From the NCBI GenBank assembly GCA_026415295.1, contig JAOAHJ010000005.1, forward strand, positions 1-49,506: a stretch of 49,506 bases of DNA, in the 5' to 3' direction. Shown here one piece after another: positions 4,528-42,283 of the stretch; positions within the stretch are counted from its first letter, which is position 1; each line of letters starts with the position of its first letter. Source of the stretch: Spirochaetota bacterium (GTDB lineage Bacteria; Spirochaetota; JAAYUW01; JAOAHJ01). The position numbers and the translations under genes are program-made. The notes under the pieces were generated by a model, which searched no databases, had not been told where the DNA came from, and saw only the letters and a list, made by a program, of their open reading frames with translations.

Positions 4528-5595
4528 TTAAAATTCAGAGTAATTTAATATTTTTTCCTCACCATAAAAAGCCCTGTAAGCACCAAATGCAAGAGCTTCT
4601 AATTCATATTCTCCTGCAACTATTTCAATCCTATATTTATCTTTTAACCAATTTCTAATTTCATTAATTATATATTCAGAATGTGCAAGTCCTCCTGTAA
4701 TAATTATAGCATCTGGAGCCATATCAACTGCAGGTAAAACACTACAGATGTTTTTTACTATTCTGTAAATCATTGCTTTTATAACAATATATATTTGTGG
4801 ATCTTTTTCAATATTATCTATTAAGTATTTAACATCATCAGTATTAAAATATAATAGTAGCCCACCATTTTTATTAAAAAGATCATCAACTTTTTCTAGT
4901 GGGTAATTTGATTTCTTTAACCATTTTATGAATTGTTTTATTGGAAGATCTCCACAAGATGTAGGTGAAAATGGACCAGTTTGTCTTGATTCAGAAACAT
5001 CTACTATTATTCCTTTTTTGATTGCATTAATAGATATTCCGCCCCCTAAGTGTGCAACTATAAAAGAGCATTCAAAAAAAGGTTTTGCTAATTTTTCTGC
5101 TATTTTTCTTCCACAAGCTCTTGAATTTAGTGTATGAGTTAAAGCTTGAAGTTTTATTTCTGGATGACCTGTTATTTTAGCAAAATCCCACATTTCATCA
5201 GTTGATATAGGATCAACAATAATAGCTTTTTTATTAATCTCTTTAGAGAAATCGTAAGCTATAAGAGCTCCTACTAATGATGCGTGGGCAGTTTGATAGT
5301 TTCCATTTTTTATATCATTTACCATATCTTCATTTATTTCATATATCCCTGCTTTTAATGGTTTTAATGGACCTCCTCTGCTTGAGATAATATCAATATC
5401 AGAAAGTTTATAACCTTTTGTTTCTATACTTTTCAAGATTGCACTTTTTCTAATTGGTACTTCTTCAGAGAAATTTTTACATAATTTTAACTCTTCAGGA
5501 TCATGTTTAACATTTTCTTGAAAAAGTAAATTTTTATCATTGTAGATAGCTATTTTGGTTGAAGTTGAACCAGGATTTATTATTAAACTTTTCAT
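4528..5595 (-). CDS. buk: Butyrate kinase
   Basis: Interconverts butyryl phosphate and ADP with butyrate and ATP; a member of the ASKHA acetokinase family. It has the N-terminal phosphate-binding INPGSTSTKIAIY, the family signature HLGGGISI near 183-190, and the C-terminal ITGGLAHSEYI. The length of 355 residues is typical of butyrate kinase (acetate kinase is nearer 400). AGGGGG lies before the ATG. No phosphotransbutyrylase is adjacent, so the substrate could be another short-chain acyl phosphate such as isobutyryl- or branched-chain forms. It would give ATP by substrate-level phosphorylation in fermentation. Confidence 0.92.
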   Translation of the reverse strand: MKSLIINPGSTSTKIAIYNDKNLLFQENVKHDPEELKLCKNFSEEVPIRKSAILKSIETKGYKLSDIDIISSRGGPLKPLKAGIYEINEDMVNDIKNGNYQTAHASLVGALIAYDFSKEINKKAIIVDPISTDEMWDFAKITGHPEIKLQALTHTLNSRACGRKIAEKLAKPFFECSFIVAHLGGGISINAIKKGIIVDVSESRQTGPFSPTSCGDLPIKQFIKWLKKSNYPLEKVDDLFNKNGGLLLYFNTDDVKYLIDNIEKDPQIYIVIKAMIYRIVKNICSVLPAVDMAPDAIIITGGLAHSEYIINEIRNWLKDKYRIEIVAGEYELEALAFGAYRAFYGEEKILNYSEF

Positions 5596-13491: not shown

Positions 13492-13519
13492 AAAATAAAA
13501 ATAATTTTTGGGGAGGAAT

Positions 13520-16138
13520 ATGAAAACATTTGTTATTGTTGGAGGTGTAGCTGGTGGAGCTACGGCTGCTGCGAGATTAAGAAGACTTGATGAGACTATA
13601 AATATTATAATAATAGAAAGAGAAAATTATATATCTTATGCTAATTGTGGACTTCCTTACTATATAGGGGAAACTATAAAAGAATGGGATAATTTGTTTG
13701 TACAAAATAAAGAGTCATTTGGAAAAAGGTTTAATATTGATGTTAAAATTAATCATGAAGCAATGTTTATTGATAGGGAAAATAAAATTATTAAAGTAAA
13801 AGATTTAAAAAATAATAAGATATTTGATTTGAGATATGATAAACTTTTACTTTCGCCTGGTGCAGAACCATTAAAACCAAATATTCCTGGTATTGAAAAT
13901 AAAAATATTTTTACTTTAAGAAATCCTTTAGATACATTATCAATAAAAAACTTTATTAAAAGTAAAAATGTTAAAAAGGCTCTGATTGTTGGAGCTGGTT
14001 TTATAGGTTTAGAAGTTGCAGAAAATTTGTACAATTTAGGCATTAAAGTATCAATTGTAGAACTTTCTCCACAAGTAATGCCAGCAATAGATTTTGATGT
14101 AGCAATAGAATTACATCAACATTTAAAAAGTAAAGGAGTAGAATTTTATTTAAATGATCAAGTGATTGGTTTTGAATCTAAAGAATCAATTATAGGAGCT
14201 AAATTATTAAGTGGTAGAAAAATATATTCCGATATGGTAGTTTTATCAATAGGTGTTAAACCAGAAAATAAACTTGCAAAAGATGCATCTTTAGCTTTAG
14301 GAAAAAAAGGAGGAATTCTTGTTAATGAATTTTTACAAACATCGGATCCTGACATTTATGCTGTTGGGGATGTTATTGAAGGTTACAATTATTTGCTAGA
14401 AAAGAATACAGTTATACCATTAGCTGGGCCTGCAAATAAACAAGCAAGAATAGCTGCAGAAAATATGCTTTATGGCAATAATAGAAAATATAAAGGTTCA
14501 ATAGGAGTTTCTATAGCAAAAGTATTTGATTTAACAGTTGCTACTGCAGGATTGACAGAAAAAATATGTAAAACAGAAAATATATCTTATGAAAAAGTCT
14601 TAATTCATTCTTCTTCTCATGCAGGCTATTATCCAGGAGCTTTACCTTTAACACTAAAATTAATATTTAAGAAAGAAAATGGAAAAATATTAGGTGCCCA
14701 GCTTGTTGGTTACGATGGAGTTGATAAAAGAATAGATGTAATTTCTGCGATGATTCAAAAAGAAGGAACTATATTTGATCTTGTTGAATTTGAACATGCT
14801 TATGCACCTCCTTATTCTTCAGCAAAAGATCCGATAAATATTGCTGGTTATATTGCTGAAAATATTTTTAATAATAATTTAAAAATGATATATATAGAAG
14901 ATTTTATAAAGCTTGATAGGAAAGAAATTTTTTTAATTGATGTTAGAACAAAAGAAGAATTTGACATAGGAACTATCGAGGGGGCTATTAATATTCCTGT
15001 GGATGATTTAAGAAATTGTTTAAATCAAGTTCCCAAGGACAAAAAAATTATACTTTTTTGTGGGGTTGGATTAAGAGGTTATATTGCATACAGGATACTA
15101 ATCAAGCATGGTTATAGTGAGGTTTTTAATCTTATGGGTGGTTATAAAACTTATCAATATTTTATTCAAAAACAATCAAATGAAGATATCTTTGAAAATG
15201 ATTTTATAGGTATTGATGATAATATATATCAATTGGATAAAAGTAAATTTTTAAAAGATTTAAAAAATTATCCTATTTATGATGAAAAAAATGAAAGTTT
15301 TAATATAAATAAAGATGAATTTAATGTTATTGCTGAGATTGATGCTTGTGGGTTAAATTGTCCTGGACCCATTCTAAAATTAAAAAAGGAATTTAGTAAA
15401 ATTGAGAATAATGGAGTTGTTTTAATAAAAGCTACCGATCCAGGTTTTAAAAAAGATATTTTTGCTTGGGCAAAACTTTCTGGAAATACTATTTTAGATA
15501 TTAAGGAAAATAAAGGTGTAATTTATGCAAAAATAATGAAAGGTAATTATAAATCTATTAAAAAAGATAAAGAGAGCAATATAGATTATTCAAATGTTGA
15601 CAATTCTAATGATTTTAAAAAAATTGAAAATAAAAATAAAGTTATAGAAGAAAATATAGTTATTAAAAATGATTCTGCAACAATTATTGTATTTTCAAAT
15701 GATATGGATAAAGTACTTGCTTCCTTTGTTTTAGCTTTAGGTGCTATTTCAGCAGGTAAAAAAGTTACAATGTTTTTTACTTTCTGGGGGCTTACAGTAA
15801 TTAGGAAAAAAAATAAAATAAAAACTAAAAAAGATTTTATGTCAAAAATGTTTGCAAAAAAGCTTCCTTCTAATTTAAATAAGTTGAAGCTTTCTAAAAT
15901 GAATTTATTTGGATTAGGTCCTTTGTTTATGAAAATAAGAATGAAGCAGAAAAATGTTGATTTTATAGATAATATGATGAAAGAAGCTTTGGAAAATGGA
16001 GTAAATATTGTTGCTTGCCAGATGTCAATGGATGTTATGGGAATTAGCAAAGAAGAGTTGCTAGATGATGTTGAAATAGGAGGTGTAGCAACTTATATGG
16101 AGAAAGCATCAGAAAGCAATATAAATTTATTTATTTAA
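13520..16138 (+). CDS. Four-domain CoA-disulfide reductase / rhodanese / TusA / DsrE2 fusion
   Basis: An 872-residue cytoplasmic protein with four linked sulfur modules. Residues 1-450 form a FAD/NAD(P)H disulfide reductase: GGVAGGATAAARLRR nucleotide site, the redox Cys43 in SYANCGLPYY, a second dinucleotide site GAGFIGLEVAE, and AVGDV. Residues ~456-545 are a rhodanese domain with active Cys514 (CGVGLR). Residues ~603-675 are a TusA domain with CPGP (Cys614). Residues ~720-872 are DsrE-like with a conserved-type Cys833. Each domain keeps its thiol, so persulfide could pass between them; reduction of CoA disulfide, CoA persulfide or polysulfide is the likely role. The ATG at 13520 is set by GGGGAGG; an upstream in-frame TTG lies inside that site. 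The same fusion is known from other anaerobes and Firmicutes. Confidence 0.9.
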   Translation: MKTFVIVGGVAGGATAAARLRRLDETINIIIIERENYISYANCGLPYYIGETIKEWDNLFVQNKESFGKRFNIDVKINHEAMFIDRENKIIKVKDLKNNKIFDLRYDKLLLSPGAEPLKPNIPGIENKNIFTLRNPLDTLSIKNFIKSKNVKKALIVGAGFIGLEVAENLYNLGIKVSIVELSPQVMPAIDFDVAIELHQHLKSKGVEFYLNDQVIGFESKESIIGAKLLSGRKIYSDMVVLSIGVKPENKLAKDASLALGKKGGILVNEFLQTSDPDIYAVGDVIEGYNYLLEKNTVIPLAGPANKQARIAAENMLYGNNRKYKGSIGVSIAKVFDLTVATAGLTEKICKTENISYEKVLIHSSSHAGYYPGALPLTLKLIFKKENGKILGAQLVGYDGVDKRIDVISAMIQKEGTIFDLVEFEHAYAPPYSSAKDPINIAGYIAENIFNNNLKMIYIEDFIKLDRKEIFLIDVRTKEEFDIGTIEGAINIPVDDLRNCLNQVPKDKKIILFCGVGLRGYIAYRILIKHGYSEVFNLMGGYKTYQYFIQKQSNEDIFENDFIGIDDNIYQLDKSKFLKDLKNYPIYDEKNESFNINKDEFNVIAEIDACGLNCPGPILKLKKEFSKIENNGVVLIKATDPGFKKDIFAWAKLSGNTILDIKENKGVIYAKIMKGNYKSIKKDKESNIDYSNVDNSNDFKKIENKNKVIEENIVIKNDSATIIVFSNDMDKVLASFVLALGAISAGKKVTMFFTFWGLTVIRKKNKIKTKKDFMSKMFAKKLPSNLNKLKLSKMNLFGLGPLFMKIRMKQKNVDFIDNMMKEALENGVNIVACQMSMDVMGISKEELLDDVEIGGVATYMEKASESNINLFI

Positions 16139-25361: not shown

Positions 25362-28300
25362 ATGATTAATATAAAAATTAAAAATATAAAAAATTATTCA
25401 TTAATTATAATTGTCTTTGCACTATTTATTTTTTCAGTGAACTTAATATATGCACAAACTACAAATAATACTAATTATGGGTTAGGATATTCTTATTATG
25501 ATTTTTATAGTTATGGAATGGCAACAGGTTTTGTTATTTCTCCATATTCAAATTATCCATTTTCTTTCCTTATAAACCCTGCATATGGTGCTAAACTTGC
25601 TGATAACGATTTCTCTTTTTTAATTTCTGGGTTTTCAAATTTTATAATTGGAAATACTTATTATTCATTTGATACTGTTTATGGAAATGTAACATTTTTT
25701 CTATCTTATATGAACCAATATGGAGTAAGTCCTAATAATAATATTCTTTTTAGAACTAATTTTGCAAAACTTATAAATGAAGATTTTTGGGTAGGTGTAG
25801 CATTGAACTTTATAACAGATGGATTTACAAATTTTGGCATGAATTTTGATCTTGGTATTTCTTCTAAAACACCTTACGAAGCATTTAATGGATTTGGATT
25901 TAAAAATTTAGCTTGGGGTATTGTATTAAATAATATAGGTTATCCTGCTAAAATTAATAGTAATTATTATCCCCCAATTGGTTTAATTGGATCGATATCT
26001 TTTGATTTTTTAAATATCAGTAACAATTTAGTTGTAACTTTTATAGATAATCTTTTTCTAAATTTTTATCCTTTTTCTATTGGTAATGGATCAAACATAA
26101 ATATAAATATTTTTAAATTTTTGGATTTAAATTTTGGAATTAAACTTGCCTATTTAGATTATTTATCTGTTTTTTCATATCATTTAGGTATTTCATTTTA
26201 TATTCCAATTAACAAAGATAATAATATTTATATATCCTATGGATATTCTAATAATTCAAACAATAATCCAATACATACAGTAAATTTTAATTACACATTT
26301 GGTGGTATTGATAAAAAAGCACCTATTACAAAAATCAAAGTTGATAAAAATAAATTTTCTCCAAATTATGACGGTGTTAAAGATGAAGTAAATATATTTC
26401 CAAAATTTGAAGATAATTCTATAATTTTTGGTTGGAAAATAATTATAATGGATGAAAAGGGAAATATAGTAAAAGTATTTGAGGCAGAAGATGTTAGAAA
26501 AGTTAGGTATGTAACTCTTGATAAAATATTTAATAGATTATTTGCAAAGAAAGAGCAGGTTAAGATTCCAGAATTTATTTCATGGGATGGAACAGATTAT
26601 GAAGGAAAAGTTTTACCTGATGGGAAATATTTTATTTATGCAATTTCATGGGATGAAAATAATAATGAAGGCAGAAGTGAGATTATTGAGGTATTAATAG
26701 ATACAAAAATTAATAAATTTGAGGTAAAAGAAACAACAGAATTTGATATGTTTTCTCCAAATGGTGATGGGAGAAAAGAAACTTATAATGCTAAAATTGC
26801 ATTTTCAAAATTGGATGAAGATGAATGGATTTTAGTGCAAATTTTTGATGAAAATGATAATCTAATTAATTCTTTTAAATTAGATAAAAATTATATAAAT
26901 AATAATACTATTTTATTTTCTTGGGATGGAATGACAAATAAAAATACCCTTGCTCCAGAGGGTTTTTATAAAATTGTATTTAGAGCAGAAGATGAAGCTG
27001 GAAATATTTTAAAGCTTGATGAGAGAAAAGTAACTCTTGTAAGAACTTATGAGGTAATAAAGTCTTATGCTTCCTCAGAATATCTTGCTCCAACAGGAAA
27101 TGGGAAAAATGATACAATTATTTTTATTAACAATATAACCTCTTCAGAAAATATAATATTTTGGGAATTAATAATAAAGGATAAAAATAATAATGAAGTA
27201 TTTAAACAGAATGGTGATGGAAATATTCCTGATAAGTTTGTTTGGGATGGAATAGATAAAAATAAAAAGCTTGTTTCTGATGGTAGATATATTTATTTCA
27301 TTAAAGCAAAATTTAAAAGTGGTAATGAACCAGTTTCTAATGAAGTAAATTTTACTGTAGATACTAAACCTCCAGTTATTATTATTACAGAAGAATATCT
27401 TGCTTTTTCTCCTGATGGTGATGGAAATAAAGATACTCTTAAAATAATTGTTGAGGTAAAAGATGAAGATAATATTAATGTAATTAAAGATATATTATTT
27501 ATTAATCCATATAAACAAAATTTATTAATTACTCCTCTTAACAAAAAGATTATTTCTGATAAAAAAATCGAAATTGTTCTTGATGGATATGATTTAGAGA
27601 GGAGGGAAATACCTCAAGGAAATTATATAGTATTAATAAATACTGAAGACAATGCTGGGAATTCTGCTAAATATAGTTCTAAAGAGATTAAATTAGTTAG
27701 AGTTGTAGAAGAAGTATATGTTGATTCAAATTTAGCTTATTATTCTCCTAACAATGATAATTTTAATGATTTAATTATATTTAAGGTTGATGCTAAAGAA
27801 AAAAATGGAATTGTTAAAACCACATTTTATATTGTTGGATCAGATGGTCAAATAAAAATAAAGAAAGAATTTAAAGGATTACCTGAAAATATTCAATTCA
27901 ATGATAAATTGGAAAATGGTCAATATTATTATTATATTGAAGTAGAATATGATAGTGGTATTAAGTCAAAATCTTACGATAAAAAATATTTTATTACTGA
28001 TTTAGTTTCACCAGAAGTTACTATAAGCTTAGATAATAGATATTTTTCTCCAAATAATGATGGAAATAATGATGTTCTAATTGTCAATCTTAAATCTAAT
28101 GAACCATTATTAAAATATGATGTAATTATTAAAAGAGGGAATAGTACTGTTGGAACTTATAAAATAGAAAATGTTAGTGAAAAATATATCTTAGATGGCA
28201 AGAATCTTTCTGATGGAGACTATTTAATTAATTTTATTTTTTATGATAATGCTGGGAATAGAACCTCAAAAGAAGAGTCCTTTTTTATAAATAGAGAAAG

Positions 28301-29360
28301 CCCTAAAATAAATGCTTCTACAAATGATATTCCTGTAATCTCACCAAATTTTGACAATTTTAGAGACTTTATTAATATTAATATTAACATAGACGATTCA
28401 AATATTATCAAAAAAGATAAGCTTAAAAATGTTAGAATTAGTATAAAAAACTCTAAAAATGAATCAGTTATTGTTAAAGATTTTAATACTAAAATAGAAA
28501 ATTTTAAGTTTGATGGAATTATTGAAGGTAAAAAGACTTTAGAAACAGGAAATTATGATTTTGTAATTGAAGCCTTTTATGAAAGTGGAATTTATGGGAT
28601 ATTTGAGTTAAAGGATATTTTAGTTGATCTAGAAGCTCCAAAAATAGATACAGTTATTAAACCTGATCTATTTTCTCCTGATAATGATGGATTTAATGAT
28701 GAACTTTTTGTTACATTTAATACATCTGATAATTATAAATTAAGTGAATGTATTATTCAAATATTCAGAGTCTATGATGAAAAAACAATAAGTAAAAATC
28801 CAATAAAAACATTTACTTATAAAAATTTAACAAGCGATAAATTTAGTATTATTGAAAAATGGGATGGTATAGGTGATGATCCGAAATATAAAGTAGATTC
28901 TGCTGCAGATTACAAAATATTTTTCTATGCTAAAGATTTTGCAGGAAATGAGATAAGAATAACTCAAGATTTTACAGTTGACATTCTTGTTGAAAAGATT
29001 GAAAGAGATGGAAAAGTAATGTATAGAATTATATTAAACTCTATTACTTTTGCATTTAATTCCGATAAGCTTGATAGAAATTCATTTGCAATTCTTGATA
29101 AATTGGTTGAGAAATTGAATAAGTTTAAGGATTATAGAATAAGAATCATTGGATACACAGATAATATTGGAGATTATAATTACAATATTCAGTTATCTAT
29201 AAGAAGAGCTAAGAGTGTTTATGATTATCTTGTTAGAAAAGATATTGATCCAAAAAGATTAACTTATGAAGGAAGAGGACCCAATGATCCTATAGATACT
29301 AATGATACAGAAGATGGGAGAAGAAGGAATAGAAGAGTAGAATTTTATCTAGAAAGATAA
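25362..29360 (+). CDS. Giant envelope protein: barrel-like N-domain, eight FlgD-type Ig repeats, OmpA domain
   Basis: A 1332-residue exported protein. A signal peptide ends near IYA-QTT (about residue 31). Residues ~35-315 are Tyr/Phe/Asn-rich with alternating hydrophobic strands ending in NFNYTFGG, like an outer-membrane beta barrel (PorV/UPF0164-like). Then come eight repeats marked by a SPNxDGxxD-type turn starting at residues 332, 464, 575, 682, 794, 895, 993 and 1104, a spacing of about 98-132. Several carry the FlgD-Ig pattern WDGxD...G..LPDGKY. Residues ~1228-1332 form an OmpA-like peptidoglycan-binding domain with ITFAFNSDKL, GYTDNIGDYNYN and RRRNRRVEFYL. It would bridge outer membrane, periplasm and cell wall. 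This architecture is typical of spirochaete proteins. AGGAGG lies 12 nt before the ATG. Confidence 0.85.
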   Translation: MINIKIKNIKNYSLIIIVFALFIFSVNLIYAQTTNNTNYGLGYSYYDFYSYGMATGFVISPYSNYPFSFLINPAYGAKLADNDFSFLISGFSNFIIGNTYYSFDTVYGNVTFFLSYMNQYGVSPNNNILFRTNFAKLINEDFWVGVALNFITDGFTNFGMNFDLGISSKTPYEAFNGFGFKNLAWGIVLNNIGYPAKINSNYYPPIGLIGSISFDFLNISNNLVVTFIDNLFLNFYPFSIGNGSNININIFKFLDLNFGIKLAYLDYLSVFSYHLGISFYIPINKDNNIYISYGYSNNSNNNPIHTVNFNYTFGGIDKKAPITKIKVDKNKFSPNYDGVKDEVNIFPKFEDNSIIFGWKIIIMDEKGNIVKVFEAEDVRKVRYVTLDKIFNRLFAKKEQVKIPEFISWDGTDYEGKVLPDGKYFIYAISWDENNNEGRSEIIEVLIDTKINKFEVKETTEFDMFSPNGDGRKETYNAKIAFSKLDEDEWILVQIFDENDNLINSFKLDKNYINNNTILFSWDGMTNKNTLAPEGFYKIVFRAEDEAGNILKLDERKVTLVRTYEVIKSYASSEYLAPTGNGKNDTIIFINNITSSENIIFWELIIKDKNNNEVFKQNGDGNIPDKFVWDGIDKNKKLVSDGRYIYFIKAKFKSGNEPVSNEVNFTVDTKPPVIIITEEYLAFSPDGDGNKDTLKIIVEVKDEDNINVIKDILFINPYKQNLLITPLNKKIISDKKIEIVLDGYDLERREIPQGNYIVLINTEDNAGNSAKYSSKEIKLVRVVEEVYVDSNLAYYSPNNDNFNDLIIFKVDAKEKNGIVKTTFYIVGSDGQIKIKKEFKGLPENIQFNDKLENGQYYYYIEVEYDSGIKSKSYDKKYFITDLVSPEVTISLDNRYFSPNNDGNNDVLIVNLKSNEPLLKYDVIIKRGNSTVGTYKIENVSEKYILDGKNLSDGDYLINFIFYDNAGNRTSKEESFFINRESPKINASTNDIPVISPNFDNFRDFINININIDDSNIIKKDKLKNVRISIKNSKNESVIVKDFNTKIENFKFDGIIEGKKTLETGNYDFVIEAFYESGIYGIFELKDILVDLEAPKIDTVIKPDLFSPDNDGFNDELFVTFNTSDNYKLSECIIQIFRVYDEKTISKNPIKTFTYKNLTSDKFSIIEKWDGIGDDPKYKVDSAADYKIFFYAKDFAGNEIRITQDFTVDILVEKIERDGKVMYRIILNSITFAFNSDKLDRNSFAILDKLVEKLNKFKDYRIRIIGYTDNIGDYNYNIQLSIRRAKSVYDYLVRKDIDPKRLTYEGRGPNDPIDTNDTEDGRRRNRRVEFYLER

Positions 29361-29671: not shown

Positions 29672-32098
29672 TTAACTTGGATTACTTACATCTTTAATTT
29701 CACTAGAATCTATATTTTCTTCTGAAATATTATCTATTGTTGGTAATAAAGTTTTGTTTTTAGCTTCTGTTTCCAATATATAAGCTAAATCTTGTTGAGA
29801 AAGTTCTATACCGAGAGATATAATATATTTGAGATTGTTTGAATCATCAGAGTATTTTATAAAATTTGTAAAATAAATTTTATTATAAAATGTCTGAATA
29901 TCAAATATTTCAGATTCGTGTAAAATTCTCCTATAAAAATAAGAATCTTTCTCAATAAGTGTCCCAATTGCTGAATTGTTCAATGCATCTCGTGCAGTTG
30001 TATTAACTCTAATTAGATCATTTTTATCAGTATATTGAAAGATTGTTATTTCAATATCTGGGTATTTTTTCTTTATTAGATTAAGAATGCTTTCATCTTT
30101 AGAAATATGATAATTATTGACAATTAGAGAATCAACATATTGACCATTTAATTCAAATTTTCCATCAGATGACATATTATAAGGATTTTTCAAAATATGA
30201 TCTTCTATATATTCTAAAGATTCTCTTAAAATATGATAATATTTTTCTTCTATTTCTGGCAATAATTTTATAAATTTAAAATAAGAAAACTTGTCAAGAA
30301 GTTTGTTAAAATCGGAAAATATATCTATTTGACTTTGTTCTACAAGGCCAAGATCATTTAAGTGTTTGGAGATATCATTTGTTATATGGTTAAGCGATAT
30401 ATTTAAACTATTAGAATGGGTTTCAATATCATCTATCATTTCATGCAATTTATCAATTAATCCATTTAATCCTTTTAAATTACCAACAATAAATTTAATT
30501 ATATCTTCAACATTAGAGGTAGATTCTTTAATTTTGTTTAATGTATCTCCAGTTTCACTTGTTAATACAGAAATGTTTTCTGCAAATAATTTTGTATGAG
30601 AAGCAAGTTTTCTAATTTCTGATGCAACAACAGAAAAGCCCTTACCTGTTTCACCTGCTTTTGAGGATTCAATTGATGCATTAAGAGAAAGCAAGTTTGT
30701 TTGAGTTGCTATATTTTGTATTTGTTTTGAAAATTCCTCAATTTTTGAATACATTTCTGTTAAACTTGTGAGATTTTCATATAGTAATTTAATAACTTTA
30801 AAGTTTTCTTGAGCTTTTTCTATAGATGTATTGGAGTATTGTAATGATGTTTTAGATATCTCTTTTAAATTTTCTAGTTTCTTATTATATTGATAAAATT
30901 CATTTGTTAATTTAATAAGTTTTTGAGTCTCATTATAAATATATTGGACACTAACTTCAAATGTATAATTTGAACTAAAAAGTTTTTCCATAAAATCATT
31001 GGAAAGTACAGATATAGATTGAATAACATTTCTTAAATCTATTATCATATTTTGTATTGATTCTCTTATAGAATAATATTCATCATTTTTATTTTTTGGT
31101 AAACTTATTGAAAGGTTTCCTTTTGAAATTTCATTATTTAAAAATTCAATTTCTTTTAAAGGATAGAAAATAATTTTTTCATAGAGAATAATTAGAGGAT
31201 AAGTAAAAATAGCTAAAATGATGATAATTAATATTATTCCATATGTCTGAACTTGCTTTAAAGTAGCATTAATATAACTTGAAGGAATCAAATTAATAAT
31301 TTTAAACTCAAGTTCGTTTATAGAACTAAAATATGAATAAAAATAATCATTTTTATTTTCTGTAAATAATTTTATGTAACCCCCTTGAATATCTTTAATA
31401 GGTGATAGATTAAATTTTAAATCAGTTGTAGAAAATATAACATCCCCTGGTTTATATTTTGTGTTTATTTTATAATCAATATTGTTTTCATAAATTAAAA
31501 AGTAACTAAATGAAGGTAATTCAAAAGAATTTATTTTTTCCTTTATATAATTTATAAATGGTCTATTTATTATTACAAATACATAAAATTTTGTAGTGTT
31601 TCTATGATCATTTATTGTAGTAATCTGTATTGGATAGTAATCATCATTAAAAAAAGCTAACCCTGAAAATTGATTGCTTCTTTCAATAGCTTGAATTACA
31701 GCATCTACAGGAATTGGGATTTGAGAAAAATCAGACTCATTAGTGTTTGAAGCTAAAATTTCATAGTTATTATTCATGATATAGATAAAATAATTATTGT
31801 CAAAAGAATCTTGATTTTTTATATATTCTAAAAAGAGATCATCATTAAAATTAAAATCTGAATATTTTCTTGTAAAAGTTCTAAAAATATTAGTTAAATT
31901 ATCTCTTAAATCAGATAATTCTTTAATATAACTATAACTTATTTCTGTATATATAGTTTTATTTAATTTTTGTAAAACAAAGTTTATAAGATTTTCATAA
32001 TTAGAAGTTACTTTATTAAAGAAAAACATAAAGAATAAAATAAAGGAAAATATAATGAAAATAAAAGTAACAACTAATATTTTAGTTTTTATGTTCAT
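29672..32098 (-). CDS. Methyl-accepting chemotaxis protein with C-terminal Cache-like domain
   Basis: An 808-residue chemoreceptor. TM1 spans about 6-28 and TM2 about 286-303, enclosing a ~255-residue periplasmic sensor of Cache type. A HAMP-like region (about 304-355) and a signalling coiled coil (about 370-600) follow; the tip reads [20 protein letters not shown], then [16 protein letters not shown] (464-499), the site that contacts CheA/CheW. Unusually, after the coiled coil lies another globular domain (about 615-785) with [37 protein letters not shown] and a [11 protein letters not shown] strand, resembling Cache_3/Cache_2 sensors but on the cytoplasmic side. It starts 14 nt after the nrdJ stop, so both share a transcript. 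AGAGG precedes the ATG at a distance of 9 nt. Confidence 0.85.
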
Positions 32099-32112
32099 TT
32101 TCCAATGCCTCT

Positions 32113-34398
32113 TTAACTACATTTAGAAAATCCACAATTTAAACAAGTTGAACACCCTTCAATTTGCATTAGTGTTCCCCCACATTCAGGACAAACTCCA
32201 CCAATATCTTTGTTAAAATTATCTTTATAATTTTCGTCATTTTTATAATCAAAATTAATTTCTTCAATATTTTTATTGTTATCTATTGAAGAAAAAAGTT
32301 GGTTTCTATCTTCAAGATAAATTTCTAGTGCTTTAGCAATTGAATCAGCACATGAAAAATTTCTTTTACCTTCTTTAAGTAAAGGCGATGGATTAGGACA
32401 TCTTATTCCTTTCAATTGTTTAATTATGGAATCTGGATCTATATCTGCTCGCAAAGATAAAGAAACAAGTCTTGAAATAGCTTCTATTTGTGAAGCAGCA
32501 CAACCACCGGCTTTCCCCATAGTTGCAAAGAGTTCAACTAAACCGTTATCATCTTCATTTATTGTAACATAAAGATGCCCACAACCTGTTTCCATTCTTA
32601 TAGTTTTACCTTTTGTGACAGAAGGTCTAGGTCTTGGTGTTGTTCTTTTTTTTATTTCAGAAGAACCTGATTTTTGTTTTTCTAATGATTTTATACCAAG
32701 ATGTAATACTCCCTCCCTTGATTTGTCCCTATAAATTGTTATTCCTTTACATTTTAAGTTATATGCCAGAAGAAAAGAATTTTTTACATCTTCAATAGTT
32801 GCATTTGAAGGGAAATTAATAGTTTTTGAAACTGCATTATCAGTAAATTGTTGGAAAACTGATTGCATTTCAACATGCCACTTTGGAGAGATTTCATGAG
32901 CAGTAACGAATATATTTTTAATTTCTTGAGGAATATAATCTATTTTTGCTAAGCAACCATGTTCAGCTATATCATCTTCGAATTTTTTATTGTAAAATGG
33001 TGTTGATTTTATAAAATCTAGAAAATATGGATGATATTCTACAAGTTTATTATTATCAAGAACAGTTCTGTAGAAAGCTAAAGCAAATACAGGTTCTATT
33101 CCAGAAGAGGTGCCTGCTATGATTGAGATAGTACCTGTAGGTGCTATTGTTGTTCTTGTTGCATTTCTTATTTTAATTTTTTTATCTTTATAAATAGATT
33201 TTTCCCAATTAGGGAAAACTCCTCTTTTTTGAGCAAGTTCACATGAAGCCTCAAAAGATTTTTCTTGAATAAATTTCATTACTTTTTTTCCTAAACTCAG
33301 GGCTTCTTCAGAATTGTAAGGAATTCTTAATTTGAAGAGCATATCTGCCCAACCCATGACTCCAAGACCTATTTTTCTATTTCCTTTTACAAGTTTATCT
33401 ATCATTTCAAGAGGATAACTACTTCTATCTATAACATTATCAAGAAAATGGATAGATTTATAAATAGTTTTTTCAAATTTATTCCAATCAATTTCATATT
33501 TTTTATTTTCTAATTTTAACATATTTGAAAGGTTTAATGATCCTAAATTGCAAGCTTCAAATCCTAGTAAAGGTTGTTCTCCACATGGATTAGTACTTTC
33601 AATTTCTCCAAGATCAGGTGTCGGATTATGTCTATTAATTTCATCTATAAAAATTATACCTGGTTCTCCTGTTCTCCATGCATTTTCAACAATTAAATCA
33701 AATATCTTTCTTGCACTTAATTTTTTTACTACAGATTTAGTTCTAGGGTTTATCAATTCATAATCTCTATCATTTATATAAGCTTCCATGAATTTATCTG
33801 TTAAAGCTACAGAAATATTAAAATTTGTAAGTCTGTTGACATCATTTTTACAAGTAATAAATTCTTCAATATCAGGGTGGTCAACCCTGAGAATACCCAT
33901 GTTTGCCCCTCTTCTTTTTCCTCCTTGTTTTATAGCATTTGTAGCTGCATTAAAAACTTCCATAAATGATACAGGACCAGAAGAAACACCAAAGGTTGAT
34001 TTTACAATATCATTTCTTGGTCTCAATCTTGAGAAAGAAAATCCTGTTCCTCCACCTGTTTTATGTATTAAAGCTGCATATTTTATAGTGTCAAAAATCG
34101 ATTCAATAGAATCTTCTATTGGTAAAACGAAACAAGCAGCAAGTTGACCTGCTAATGTACCAGCATTCATTAAAGTTGGAGAATTTGGGAGAAAATCAAA
34201 TGATGTCATAAGATCATAAAATTCAGAAGCTATATTTTCAATATTAATATTTTTATCATATAAAATATCAGCTTTTGCAATATCAAGGGATACTCTTTCA
34301 AAAAGTTTTTCAGGGGTTTCTTTCAATTCACCTTTTTCATTTTTTAGTAGATATCTTTTCTCAAGGACTACTTTAGCATTATCTGATAATTTTAACAT
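32113..34398 (-). CDS. nrdJ: Adenosylcobalamin-dependent ribonucleotide reductase (class II)
   Basis: Reduces ribonucleotides to deoxyribonucleotides using B12, independent of oxygen. The 761-residue protein has LPNSPTLMNAG (69-80), the redox Cys89 in AACFVLP, KTGGGTGFSFSRLRP, the active-site STNPCGEQPLLG (Cys272) and TRTTIAPTGTISIIAGTSSG. A TSCPD domain (ATMGKAGGCAASQIEAI) follows and the C-terminus is a zinc ribbon CPECGGTLMQIEGCSTCLNC ending in FSKCS. Cysteines for thioredoxin exchange are thus present. GGAGG precedes the ATG. No cobalamin riboswitch is visible in the ~195 nt upstream leader. The chemoreceptor gene follows. Confidence 0.95.
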   Translation of the reverse strand: MLKLSDNAKVVLEKRYLLKNEKGELKETPEKLFERVSLDIAKADILYDKNINIENIASEFYDLMTSFDFLPNSPTLMNAGTLAGQLAACFVLPIEDSIESIFDTIKYAALIHKTGGGTGFSFSRLRPRNDIVKSTFGVSSGPVSFMEVFNAATNAIKQGGKRRGANMGILRVDHPDIEEFITCKNDVNRLTNFNISVALTDKFMEAYINDRDYELINPRTKSVVKKLSARKIFDLIVENAWRTGEPGIIFIDEINRHNPTPDLGEIESTNPCGEQPLLGFEACNLGSLNLSNMLKLENKKYEIDWNKFEKTIYKSIHFLDNVIDRSSYPLEMIDKLVKGNRKIGLGVMGWADMLFKLRIPYNSEEALSLGKKVMKFIQEKSFEASCELAQKRGVFPNWEKSIYKDKKIKIRNATRTTIAPTGTISIIAGTSSGIEPVFALAFYRTVLDNNKLVEYHPYFLDFIKSTPFYNKKFEDDIAEHGCLAKIDYIPQEIKNIFVTAHEISPKWHVEMQSVFQQFTDNAVSKTINFPSNATIEDVKNSFLLAYNLKCKGITIYRDKSREGVLHLGIKSLEKQKSGSSEIKKRTTPRPRPSVTKGKTIRMETGCGHLYVTINEDDNGLVELFATMGKAGGCAASQIEAISRLVSLSLRADIDPDSIIKQLKGIRCPNPSPLLKEGKRNFSCADSIAKALEIYLEDRNQLFSSIDNNKNIEEINFDYKNDENYKDNFNKDIGGVCPECGGTLMQIEGCSTCLNCGFSKCS

Positions 34399-38386: not shown

Positions 38387-39961
38387 TTACTTAAAATAGG
38401 AACTTATTTCTTCATAGAAAAAGTCATTTGCTGATTTTAATGGTAAAATAAGAGATTGACCTAAAGCACAAAAAGATGTCAATTGCATAACTTTTGCAGT
38501 ATTTAACATTTTATTCCATTCGTTTTCTGTTATAAGCCTTTTATATAATTTTAAACCAGCATTAAATAAATATGTTGTTCCAATTCTACATGGAGAGCAT
38601 TTACCACAAGATTCATGTTTGAAAAATTTTAAAACAGATCTTAAAAAATCAGGTATTTCTGTTGATTCATCAAGAATTAATATGGCTCCTGAACCTAAAA
38701 CTGCTGAATATTCTCCTAAACTTTCATAGTCTAATGGGGTATCTAACATTTTATCTGATATTAAAGCTCCGGCAGATCCCCCTATTTGTGCAGCTTTAAA
38801 TTTTTTCCCTTCGATCATCCCACCTGCAAAATCATTTATAATATTTCTTAAAGTTGTTCCCATTGGTACTTCAATTAATCCTGGATGGTTAACCATTCCA
38901 AGAATTGTGTAAACTTTAGTACCAGGAGATTTTGGTGTTCCGAAAGATTTGAACCAACTTGCACCATTTAAAATGATATTTGGTACATTAGCAAGTGTTT
39001 CAACATTGTTTACAACAGTTGGTAAATTTCTAAATCCTTTTTGCCCGGGAAATGGAGGTTTATTTCTTGGATGACCTCTTTTGCCTTCCATTGATTCAAT
39101 TAAAGCTGTTTCTTCACCACATACATAAGCACCAGCACCTTTTCTAATTTCAATATCAAAAGAGAAGTTAGAACCTAAGATATTATTTCCAAGAAGTCCG
39201 TATTCTCTTGCTTGATTTATTGCATTTTGCAATCTTTTTATAGAGAGATCATATTCTCCTCTTATATATACATAACCTTTATTTGCACCAATAGCATAAC
39301 CAGCTAAAGCCATTCCTTCAATAAGTTTATGTGGATCTCCTTCTAAAATTAGTCTATCTTTAAAAGTTCCTGGTTCTCCTTCATCTGCGTTACAAATAAT
39401 AAATTTATCTCCTTTTAATGGTGCTGTAAAACTCCATTTAAGTCCTGTTGGAAAACCTGCACCTCCTCTACCTCTCAAACCAGATTCCTTAACTTCATTT
39501 AAAACTTGTTCTGGACTCATAGAAGTTAAAGCTTTACCTAAAGCTTCATATCCCATCGTAGCAATATACTCTTCTATAGATTCTGGATTAATAACACCTG
39601 CTCTTTCTAAAACTATTCTTCTCTGTGATTTTAATGTATCTTTTTTAGGTTTTGAAATTATATTTGGCATTTCAAATTTTTCAGTTAAAATTAAATTTTT
39701 TACTGGTCTTCCTTTAAGAAAATGTTCATTAACAATTGTATCTATATCTGAAGTTTTAACATTTATATAAATTATATTGTCTGGATAAATTAATAGAATA
39801 ACACCTTTGCCTATTAAATTAACTGAACCAGTTTCTGAAATATGGATCTCCTTATCAAGCTTATTATCTCTAACTTTTTTTTCTAATGTTTCTTTTATTT
39901 CATAAGCACCAGCCTCTATAGTATACTCATCTATGGGAATTAATACATTTATTCTATACAT
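38387..39961 (-). CDS. hydB: NADH-linked [FeFe] hydrogenase, HydB/NuoF-like subunit, reduced cluster set
   Basis: Flavin subunit that exchanges electrons with NAD(H). The FMN site SGLRGRGGAGFPTGLKW (160-176), the NADH site DEGEPGTFKDR (193-203) and the [4Fe-4S] ligands Cys452, Cys455, Cys458, Cys498 (ESCGKCSPCRIG...FCALG) are present. The N-terminal ~95 residues keep the thioredoxin-like fold pattern (IYPDNIIYINV, HFLKGRPV) but contain no cysteine at all, so the usual [2Fe-2S] cluster is lost. The protein stops at 524, just after SLBB/4Fe-4S domains, lacking the C-terminal 2[4Fe-4S] ferredoxin domain of electron-bifurcating HydB. AGGGGG precedes the ATG. Third gene of the operon. Confidence 0.9.
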   Translation of the reverse strand: MYRINVLIPIDEYTIEAGAYEIKETLEKKVRDNKLDKEIHISETGSVNLIGKGVILLIYPDNIIYINVKTSDIDTIVNEHFLKGRPVKNLILTEKFEMPNIISKPKKDTLKSQRRIVLERAGVINPESIEEYIATMGYEALGKALTSMSPEQVLNEVKESGLRGRGGAGFPTGLKWSFTAPLKGDKFIICNADEGEPGTFKDRLILEGDPHKLIEGMALAGYAIGANKGYVYIRGEYDLSIKRLQNAINQAREYGLLGNNILGSNFSFDIEIRKGAGAYVCGEETALIESMEGKRGHPRNKPPFPGQKGFRNLPTVVNNVETLANVPNIILNGASWFKSFGTPKSPGTKVYTILGMVNHPGLIEVPMGTTLRNIINDFAGGMIEGKKFKAAQIGGSAGALISDKMLDTPLDYESLGEYSAVLGSGAILILDESTEIPDFLRSVLKFFKHESCGKCSPCRIGTTYLFNAGLKLYKRLITENEWNKMLNTAKVMQLTSFCALGQSLILPLKSANDFFYEEISSYFK

Positions 39962-39997
39962 AAAATAACCCCCTAAAATTGTATATAATAAAAATTT

Positions 39998-40459
39998 TTA
40001 TTTATTCTTTTTATAATTTTCAATTATTTCTTTAATTTTATTATCTTCGAGATTTCCATAAACAGTTTCATTTATCATACAAGCTGGTGCAACACCACAT
40101 ACCCCTAAACATGAGGTAGTCTCCAAAGTGAATAAACCATCTGATGTTGTTTCACCAATGTCAATACCTAAATATTTTTTAAATGATTTTAAAACATTTA
40201 TTGTTCCTCTTACATGACAAGGTGCTGATTCACAAACTCTTATTATATATTTCCCTCTTTTTTCTAAGGAAAACATAGAATAAAATGTAACAACACCTTT
40301 AACTTTTGAAAGAGGAATGTTAAAATACTTTGCAACTTCCTGTAAATCTTCAAAACTTAAATATTTTTCTTTTTTTGAATCTTGAATATCATGTAATGCA
40401 AAAAGTATATTCTCTTTATCTTTTTCATATTTTTGGAGTATATTTAAAATGTTATTCAT
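39998..40459 (-). CDS. hydC: NADH-linked hydrogenase, HydC/NuoE-like [2Fe-2S] subunit
   Basis: A 153-residue thioredoxin-like ferredoxin that partners the flavin subunit. The helical N-domain contains VKGVVTFYSMFSLEKRGKY and the [2Fe-2S] ligands are Cys76, Cys81 (CESAPC) and Cys117, Cys121 (CLGVC), all intact. AAGGAG precedes the ATG. It lies 81 nt after hydA and 36 nt before hydB, so the gene order is A-C-B rather than the more common C-B-A. Confidence 0.93.
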   Translation of the reverse strand: MNNILNILQKYEKDKENILFALHDIQDSKKEKYLSFEDLQEVAKYFNIPLSKVKGVVTFYSMFSLEKRGKYIIRVCESAPCHVRGTINVLKSFKKYLGIDIGETTSDGLFTLETTSCLGVCGVAPACMINETVYGNLEDNKIKEIIENYKKNK

Positions 40460-40540
40460 AATTTTCTCCTTAAATTATGAGAATTAATCTATATAAAACT
40501 TTTTTATAATTAAAATAAATTGTATAATTAAAATTATTAA

Positions 40541-42283
40541 TTATAAATAAGCATCCCTCTTTGTATAATGTGTATGAAGTAATTCGTGAGATTTATGAGA
40601 TAGAGGTTTCTCAAGAAATTCTTTATATATAATTTCTATTGCTGGGTTTTGGTGTGATTTTCTCAATGACATATTTTTATCTTCATTATATAGTCCGCAA
40701 GCTCTTTCAAGTCTTCTTTGTAAAGTTGACCCATAAGGTTGTCCACCACCTCCAACACAACCACCAGGACATGCCATTATTTCTATGAAATGATAAGGCA
40801 TTGGTTTACCTGTTAATTTAGCTTCTTTAACTCTATCAAGTACTTTTCTTGCATTTCCAAGTCCATGAGCAACAGCTGTATTAATCTGAGTTCCTTTTAC
40901 ATTTACTGAAAACTCTTTAACCCCTTCTAAACCTCTACAAGGCTCAAGGTCAACATTTTCAAGAGGAGTTCCTGTTGCAAGTTCATAAGCTGTTCTTAAA
41001 GCAGCTTCCATAACACCACCAGTAGCTCCAAAAATAGTAGCAGCTCCGGTATATTTACCCATTAAGTCCGTAGGTTCAGAATCTGGTAGACTTTTTATAT
41101 CAATTCCAGCTTGATTTAACATTCTTACAAATTCTCTTGTTGTTAAAACGTAATCAACATCTTGATAACCTGAAGATCTCATTTCTGGTCTTCTTGCTTC
41201 AAATTTTTTTGCTGTACATGGCATAATTGATACGGAGACAATTTTTGCTGGATCAAGGTTATATTTTTTAGCAAAATAAGTTTTTGCTAAAGCACCAAAC
41301 ATTTGCTGAGGAGATTTACATGATGAAACATTTTCTAATAATTCTGGATAAAATGTTTCAATAAATTTTATCCAACCTGGAGAACAAGAAGTGATAAGGG
41401 GAAGATTTTTATTTTTTGATAATCTATCTAAAAATTCCGATCCTTCTTCCATAATAGTTAAATCAGCTGTAAAATTTGTATCAAAAATATAATCAAATCC
41501 AAGCATTTTTAAAGCAGAATACATTTTGCCAACAAGATTTGTTCCGGCGGGAAGTCCAAATTCTTCAGCTAAAGATACTCTTATAGCTGGAGCTTCTTGA
41601 ACAATTACAACTTTTTCTGGATCGTTCAATGCATCCCATACATAATCAATTTCTTGTCTTTCATAAAGAGCACCTACAGGGCAATAAGCTATACATTGTC
41701 CACAATTAATACAAACAGATTCAGCCATTTTCCCTGAAGGTGGTTCTATGATGCTTTCAAAGCCTCTATTTGTAACTTCTATAGCATAAACTGTTTGCAC
41801 TTGTTGACAAACACTTAAACATCTACCACATAGGATACATTTATCAGGATCTCTATGAACTGAAAAAGATGATTCATCTTTTTCATAAGTTTTAATAATC
41901 TTTTCATACATAGGGGTTGTAACATTCATTTTATTTGCAAGTTCTTGAAGTTCACATTTTTGATTTTTGATACAATTGAGACAATCATTTGGGTGGTTTG
42001 AAAGAATAAGCTCTAAAACTGTTTTTCTAGCATTATCTATCTCTTTAGAATATGTAATAATTTCCATACCTTCTGCAACTGGAGTTACGCAAGCTCTCTT
42101 AAGTCCTTTCTGTCCTTTAACTTCAACAACACATATTCCACAGTTCCCTGTTTCTGGAAGATCTTGATGATAACAAAGTTTTGGTATATTAACACCTGCT
42201 TGTGCAGCAGCTTTTATTATAGTAATGTTAGATGGAACTTTAATTTTTATACCATCAACTGATATATTAACGAAGTCAGCCAT
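40541..42283 (-). CDS. hydA: [FeFe] hydrogenase catalytic subunit HydA
   Basis: Catalytic H2-evolving/consuming subunit, 580 residues. N-terminus: [2Fe-2S] domain (Cys37, Cys48, Cys51, Cys65), His97/Cys101/Cys104/Cys110 cluster, and two [4Fe-4S] motifs (CILCGRCLSVC from 149; CINCGQCIAYCP from 191). H-cluster motifs: L1 is TSCSPGW (298-304, with Ser301 beside Cys300), L2 is MPCTAKKFE (Cys356), L3 is IMACPGGCVGGGGQP. The small-subunit-like tail ends LLHTHYTKRDAYL. It lacks the C-terminal [2Fe-2S] extension of longer trimeric HydA proteins. GGAGG precedes the ATG. First gene of the operon; maturation genes hydEFG are not in the window. The Ser in L1 replaces the second Cys of the textbook TSCCPGW. 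Confidence 0.95.
   Translation of the reverse strand: MADFVNISVDGIKIKVPSNITIIKAAAQAGVNIPKLCYHQDLPETGNCGICVVEVKGQKGLKRACVTPVAEGMEIITYSKEIDNARKTVLELILSNHPNDCLNCIKNQKCELQELANKMNVTTPMYEKIIKTYEKDESSFSVHRDPDKCILCGRCLSVCQQVQTVYAIEVTNRGFESIIEPPSGKMAESVCINCGQCIAYCPVGALYERQEIDYVWDALNDPEKVVIVQEAPAIRVSLAEEFGLPAGTNLVGKMYSALKMLGFDYIFDTNFTADLTIMEEGSEFLDRLSKNKNLPLITSCSPGWIKFIETFYPELLENVSSCKSPQQMFGALAKTYFAKKYNLDPAKIVSVSIMPCTAKKFEARRPEMRSSGYQDVDYVLTTREFVRMLNQAGIDIKSLPDSEPTDLMGKYTGAATIFGATGGVMEAALRTAYELATGTPLENVDLEPCRGLEGVKEFSVNVKGTQINTAVAHGLGNARKVLDRVKEAKLTGKPMPYHFIEIMACPGGCVGGGGQPYGSTLQRRLERACGLYNEDKNMSLRKSHQNPAIEIIYKEFLEKPLSHKSHELLHTHYTKRDAYL

Follow-up and report, generated by a model that had tools for sequence, protein, structure and literature searches.

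A chemoreceptor gene of a Spirochaetota bacterium raises the question of whether a Cache domain can serve a receptor from inside the cell. Cache domains are regarded as the main extracellular sensors of prokaryotes, and the accessible text of Upadhyay et al. 2016 (PMC4822843) names just two small families, YkuI_C and Diacid_rec, as principally intracellular and treats Cache domains as extracellular sensors apart from YkuI_C, Diacid_rec and SMP_2. The gene studied here lies in a window of 49,506 nucleotides, the whole stretch of DNA that we analysed, which is contig C5 of a 2.1-Mb genome in 39 contigs and has a G+C content of 24%. An initial annotation had proposed that the gene product carries a Cache-like domain after the signalling coiled coil, at residues ~615-785, and that this domain is inside the cell. 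The parts of the receptor are as follows:

29672..32098 (-), chemoreceptor gene (methyl-accepting chemotaxis protein, MCP, 808 aa), from the open reading frame and Pfam
32024..32080 (-), first transmembrane helix, residues 7-25, from hydropathy
31241..32023 (-), predicted periplasmic domain, residues 26-286, with a weak Cache_3-Cache_2 hint only (PF17201, E=0.15, below cut-off)
31184..31240 (-), second transmembrane helix, residues 287-305, from hydropathy
30365..30835 (-), MCP signalling domain, residues 422-578, from PF00015
29753..30259 (-), C-terminal cytoplasmic Cache domain, residues about 614-782 (Pfam match 662-765), from Pfam, AlphaFold2 (AF2), Foldseek and VIA

The receptor is encoded by a single uninterrupted frame, and PF00015 matches its signalling domain at 94.7 bits against a cut-off of 34.6. 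Hydropathy reaches transmembrane level in just two 19-residue windows, residues 7-25 and 287-305; no third membrane helix is found after residue 306, where the maximum is 0.93. The signalling domain has to contact CheA and CheW in the cytoplasm, and no membrane segment comes after it; established receptor topology and hydropathy together therefore place the C-terminal Cache domain on the cytoplasmic side, as the initial annotation had it. The genome encodes chemotaxis machinery, with CheW domains in two CheA-sized open reading frames (821 and 834 aa) and in smaller CheW-like frames, and it has 18 MCP matches above cut-off; with 230 residues beyond the Pfam signalling match, the window receptor has the longest such extension among them (next 154 and 153). 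Pfam finds no HAMP domain in it at E<=1; HAMP is above cut-off in the related receptors L054, L093 and L095.

A single-sequence model of the outer domain, residues 26-286, has a pLDDT of 34.7 and is of no use for fold assignment, a search of PDB sequences with the periplasmic-domain profile returned one match (E 0.7) that we took as chance, and profile-profile comparison with complete Cache_3-Cache_2 domains gave a probability of 0.2%. The idea that the inner Cache domain duplicates the receptor's own periplasmic domain found no support either (profile-profile probability 0.1%).

The C-terminal domain belongs to the Cache_3/sCache_3_3 type of Cache domain. Searched alone, the last 200 residues match Cache_3-Cache_2 (PF17201) at 33.1 bits (cut-off 27.7) and sCache_3_3 (PF17202) at 29.4 bits (cut-off 28.8); in the whole receptor PF17201 scores 34.1 bits, over its cut-off, and PF17202 27.0, just under 28.8. 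Three relatives from the same order clear the PF17202 cut-off comfortably (49.0, 46.7 and 37.6 bits). AlphaFold2, given residues 590-808 and an alignment (A4) in which the window domain is joined by 33 sequences of named loci, produced a confident Cache fold with a mean pLDDT of 81.7, above 90 for most of the core and below 50 for most of the final 25 residues. In the model a long helix (model positions 25-45, residues 614-634) leads into the antiparallel Cache sheet, which is followed by a closing helix (model positions 179-193); helices around the end of the signalling coiled coil occupy model positions 4-14, 18-22 and 25-45, with a short break ahead of the long helix. The domain thus lies where the initial annotation had put it, and a fold other than Cache and a membrane segment after residue 600, which that annotation had named as outcomes against its reading, were both looked for and neither was found. 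The window domain is not in the typical extracytoplasmic place between two membrane helices, a place that is not part of the profile definition.

Its closest structural neighbours bind formate. Foldseek ranked 8py1 and 8py0 best in the PDB with the window model (E 7.5e-8; next entry 8e-5), and VIA gave this 8py0/8py1 pair Z scores of 13.8 (156 aligned, rmsd 4.3) and 13.0 (140 aligned, rmsd 3.2), with the next entry at 9.7. The family profile, searched against PDB sequences, found two chains, 8py0 at 7.5e-17 and 8py1 at 2.8e-15. The PDB titles of both entries describe chemoreceptor sensor domains in complex with formate, and we take both to be outward-facing sensor domains ahead of a signalling domain; the window domain is only 15-20% identical to these structures. 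Compared profile to profile with the Cache_3 half of N-terminal Cache_3-Cache_2 domains, the inner domains give a probability of 99.9%. The relation to formate-binding Cache domains is absent from the initial annotation and is added here.

Three residues of PacF, R142, T145 and T158, affect formate binding, and the PacF module lies in a Cache_3 Cache_2 ligand-binding domain, according to the accessible part of PMC12501870; in the accessible part of PMC12415202, formate is bound by the sCache_3_3 domain of a chemoreceptor, and the authors were able to assign ligands to most of the sCache3_3 domains that they studied. The window domain retains all three residues:

30008..30010 (-), R697, equivalent of the formate-binding arginine R142 of PacF, from alignment
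29999..30001 (-), T700 (R+3, PacF T145), from triad spacing
29960..29962 (-), T713 (R+16, PacF T158), from triad spacing

The spacing of R697, T700 and T713 (0, +3, +16) is identical to that of the PacF triad, and the triad residues of 8py0 and 8py1 fall in register with those of the window in the profile alignment. Across 17 C-terminal domains the triad reads RTT in 13, RTS in 2, RIT in 1 and CST in 1. RTT is also found in 78/84 domains counted as N-terminal, periplasmic members; those among the 84 with no detected signalling match, and L183, were placed there by position or by default. Because the triad is equally present in these periplasmic members, it identifies the family and is no proof of formate. 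The window copy is without the Y-x-G stretch, with I731 and D733 in its place; Y is present in 16 of the 17 C-terminal domains, as is G. This aromatic-x-Gly pair is a pocket feature that we infer from conservation, not from any paper, and the window's own receptor may therefore have lost or changed its ligand. A group of 10 sequences (A3; 43-92% identity to the first row) has 37 invariant columns that include the arginine and Y-x-G, a pattern that speaks for a working domain.

The same arrangement recurs among spirochaetes. A search with the last 200 residues found matches in 12/60 genomes, and a profile of 13 such domains found matches in 102/296 spirochaete genomes, most of them ordinary periplasmic domains. 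Open reading frames read at 56 loci (17 from the first search and 39 further ones from the profile search) fall into two classes. In one, the domain is N-terminal; the other, in which it is C-terminal, comprises 16 complete receptors, the window's included, and one incomplete frame near a contig start. This C-terminal class is present in at least 13 of the 296 genomes, in family groups f1, f2, f3, f16 and f29, a lower bound because position was not read for the other, weaker matches. In a named genome collection, scanned with two peptide patterns only so that C-terminal cases in other phyla are still possible, the domain is C-terminal at 10 of 52 loci, all of them in Spirochaetes (L132-L141), and N-terminal by position at 42, 7 of these being cut by contig ends.

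The outer sensor of C-terminal-class receptors varies, being dCache_2/sCache_2 in L054 and Cache_3-Cache_2 in L093, and Pfam recognises none in L046-L048, L056, L060 and L095; the inner Cache domain is therefore the constant part. Two such receptors occur per genome in G017, G028 and G059. The receptor at L093:2054-4531 (G073), like that at L141, carries a periplasmic Cache_3-Cache_2 domain and a C-terminal sCache_3_3 domain, so that one receptor holds the same family twice. Receptors of the f3 and f16 groups (L132, L134, L135, L137) share a similar short tail (about VKDETFKHxF) after the Cache domain, and receptors of the window's order end in EIKEI-like acid tails; these tails are perhaps docking sites for adaptation enzymes.

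In a first Cache tree of 100 rows, from which L126 and L183 had been omitted beforehand as partial, the 17 C-terminal domains form two clades, one of the window's order (4 rows) and one of f3/f16/f29 (13 rows, support 99). An AU test on a second tree of 95 rows, with five long or odd rows removed, did not reject a single clade of C-terminal domains (p 0.81). In a tree of signalling domains, where just 8 of the 17 other MCPs of the window's genome passed the profile and were included, 16 such receptors group in one fork (support 84) with three long-branched receptors of that genome. One origin of the C-terminal Cache receptors is possible on these trees.

A Cache domain of this kind also occurs in a second, apparently cytoplasmic setting. 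In G028, L062:4263-9980 encodes a 1905-aa protein with protein kinase, AAA_16, Cache (residues 1366-1517), GAF and guanylate cyclase domains. Five of its 19-residue windows reach a marginal hydropathy of 1.61-1.67, and it has no clear membrane helices; we took it to be a soluble protein with its Cache domain apparently inside the cell. Because this domain groups with periplasmic-type domains in the Cache tree, it may represent an independent move into the cytoplasm.

Genome content gives mixed independent support for formate sensing. The genome has formate-THF ligase and the anaerobic NrdD; we found no pyruvate formate-lyase, no Fdh-alpha match and no FocA in it, and formate-THF ligase is absent from all four f3 genomes. 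NrdD, present in 13/13 genomes, discriminates nothing, because its count covers only the 13 genomes with the receptor. No formate theme emerged among ten neighbour proteins of related receptors, which are a TPR protein, a flavin reductase, a HisRS-like protein, a response regulator, a beta-lactamase-like protein, a thioredoxin reductase, a solute-binding protein, a quinolinate phosphoribosyltransferase, a YcxB-like protein and one protein with no match. Elsewhere in the window, 38387-42283 (-) encodes a NuoF-like subunit and an NADH-dependent [FeFe] hydrogenase of group A6, and 4528-5595 a butyrate kinase, predicted functions that point to a fermenting anaerobe; 13508-16138 (+) encodes a CoA-disulfide reductase-like protein with a DsrE2-like C-terminal domain.

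We propose that the gene encodes a transmembrane receptor with a periplasmic input and a cytoplasmic Cache input, the latter sensing an intracellular small carboxylate, most likely formate, a proposal to which we give an even chance. The receptor has the Cache fold, the topology and the R/T/T triad described above and belongs to a spirochaete receptor lineage in which they recur; binding of a ligand inside the cell is predicted. A small carboxylate inside the cell, most likely formate, would bind the Cache pocket, and the long N-terminal helix of the domain, which comes close after the descending helix of the signalling hairpin, would then shift relative to that helix. The descending helix of an MCP contains a portion of the methylation region and is packed close to the HAMP-proximal bundle, so such a shift might change CheA kinase activity or receptor methylation and adaptation. 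One receptor would in this way weigh an outside signal and the cell's internal formate or carboxylate level. Beyond the presence of the domain and its pocket triad, each of these steps is our inference.

Other explanations account for parts of these data. The domain might sense a different small carboxylate, or some other metabolite, inside the cell in place of formate, with the triad reflecting descent and not specificity. The divergent Y-x-G of the window copy, the low identity to the formate-bound structures, the genome's poverty in formate enzymes and the pyruvate, citrate, amino acids or uracil bound by other matched Cache folds (from PDB titles) would all fit such a ligand, but both formate-bound structures stand clearly above every other fold match, and we regard this alternative as quite possible, if on balance doubtful. 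It is rather unlikely, in our view, that the domain is a structural or docking module (a dimer clamp, or a platform for CheR, CheB or CheD) with a vestigial pocket and no part in metabolite sensing: in the other C-terminal domains R, T, T, Y and G rank with the most strongly conserved columns, and a pure scaffold would need none of them. The loss of the conserved Y-x-G from the window copy, the absence of formate genes nearby and the tails past the domain, which are partly conserved within groups and would fit a docking tail, are what speak for such a module.

The initial annotation had also suggested that cotranscription with nrdJ might link nucleotide or B12 status with motility. The two features concerned are:

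32113..34398 (-), nrdJ, class II (B12-dependent) ribonucleotide reductase, upstream gene of a likely operon, from NF006417 (1152 bits, cut-off 961)
32099..32112 (-), gap of 14 nt from the nrdJ stop to the receptor start, with an AGAGG Shine-Dalgarno-like site, from sequence

The cotranscription itself is likely: the gap is short, no terminator-like site was detected at it (those detected lie within nrdJ), and the pair keeps the same strand and order in 4/4 genomes of the order (G000-G003), with a gap of up to about 206 nt in G002, measured from ORF ends. The proposed link to nucleotide or B12 status, by which the receptor would report that status through its operon partner, fared otherwise and is in our judgement very improbable. 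At E<=1e-50, nrdJ is found in 29/60 genomes and has no match in G004, G017, G028, G038, G045 and G059, all of which have C-terminal-Cache receptors, so the link is unsupported. Among 30 nrdJ loci read, an MCP follows nrdJ in just the four genomes of the order; G052 has both a C-terminal-Cache receptor and nrdJ, but the surroundings of its nrdJ yielded no MCP-like frame. Riboswitch families gave no match in the window, and no nucleotide or cobalamin binder is near the top of the fold matches. OmpA-like and response-regulator neighbours are conserved as well, so the pairing of nrdJ and receptor may be plain synteny. As a general explanation we therefore reject the nrdJ link. An artefact, whether a frameshift, a chimera or an unnoticed third membrane helix with the domain on the outside, has a negligible probability: the frame is unbroken, 15 further complete receptors share the architecture, the hydropathy past residue 306 stays at or below the maximum given above, and we found no point in its favour.

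Two further observations stand apart. The window encodes at 25362-29360 (+) a 1332-aa protein with FlgD-like and Lsa66-like stretches and a C-terminal OmpA domain, homologues of which are near the nrdJ-receptor pair in G001-G003 too. In G014 (C178:852-4238; L210, L221), a single 1164-aa frame holds two nrdJ matches, 2-276 and 269-761, separated by an insertion of ~360 residues that is possibly an intein.

The proposed sensor of an internal carboxylate resembles several known systems in part. The sensor domains of 8py0 (Oscillibacter ruminantium) and 8py1 (Asticcacaulis benevestitus) and the distal Cache_3 module of PacF have the same fold, Pfam family and R/T/T spacing; they differ in that the Cache domain of the window receptor comes after the signalling domain, in the cytoplasm, and is without Y-x-G. 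In Aer-type receptors the sensor is a cytoplasmic PAS domain, N-terminal in Aer and cofactor-based. Aer resembles the proposed sensor in having a PAS-like chemoreceptor domain that senses inside the cell, and differs from it in family and position. YkuI_C and Diacid_rec are likewise Cache folds inside the cell, but they belong to different families and sit on different proteins; the VIA matches of the window model include YkuI at Z 8.0. Chemoreceptors with C-terminal ligand-binding domains (LBDs) are a poorly characterized subfamily with at least 17 LBD types, CZB being by far the commonest, in the accessible text of Ortega and Krell 2020 (PMC7390727). In such receptors, as in the window's, the ligand domain comes after the signalling domain on the cytoplasmic side; the difference is from CZB, the type that predominates there. 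A literature search of openly available main texts found no description of a cytoplasmic Cache domain placed after an MCP domain. Ligand domains at the C-terminus of chemoreceptors are thus already known, and a cytoplasmic formate-type Cache domain in that place is apparently new.

We suggest, tentatively and at somewhat less than an even chance, that this lineage transferred a Cache domain of the formate type to the cytoplasm, retained it while swapping periplasmic sensors, and reads internal formate or a similar carboxylate with it; swimming would then follow outside chemistry weighed against the cell's own metabolism, and a similar internal sensor would also be present on a large kinase-cyclase protein. 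If this is true, the Cache fold can signal with no flanking membrane helices, via an N-terminal helix that connects to the final part of the signalling hairpin. The genomes with two such receptors each (G017, G028 and G059) offer several proteins for study, and metabolism-dependent taxis would gain a concrete small-ligand candidate.
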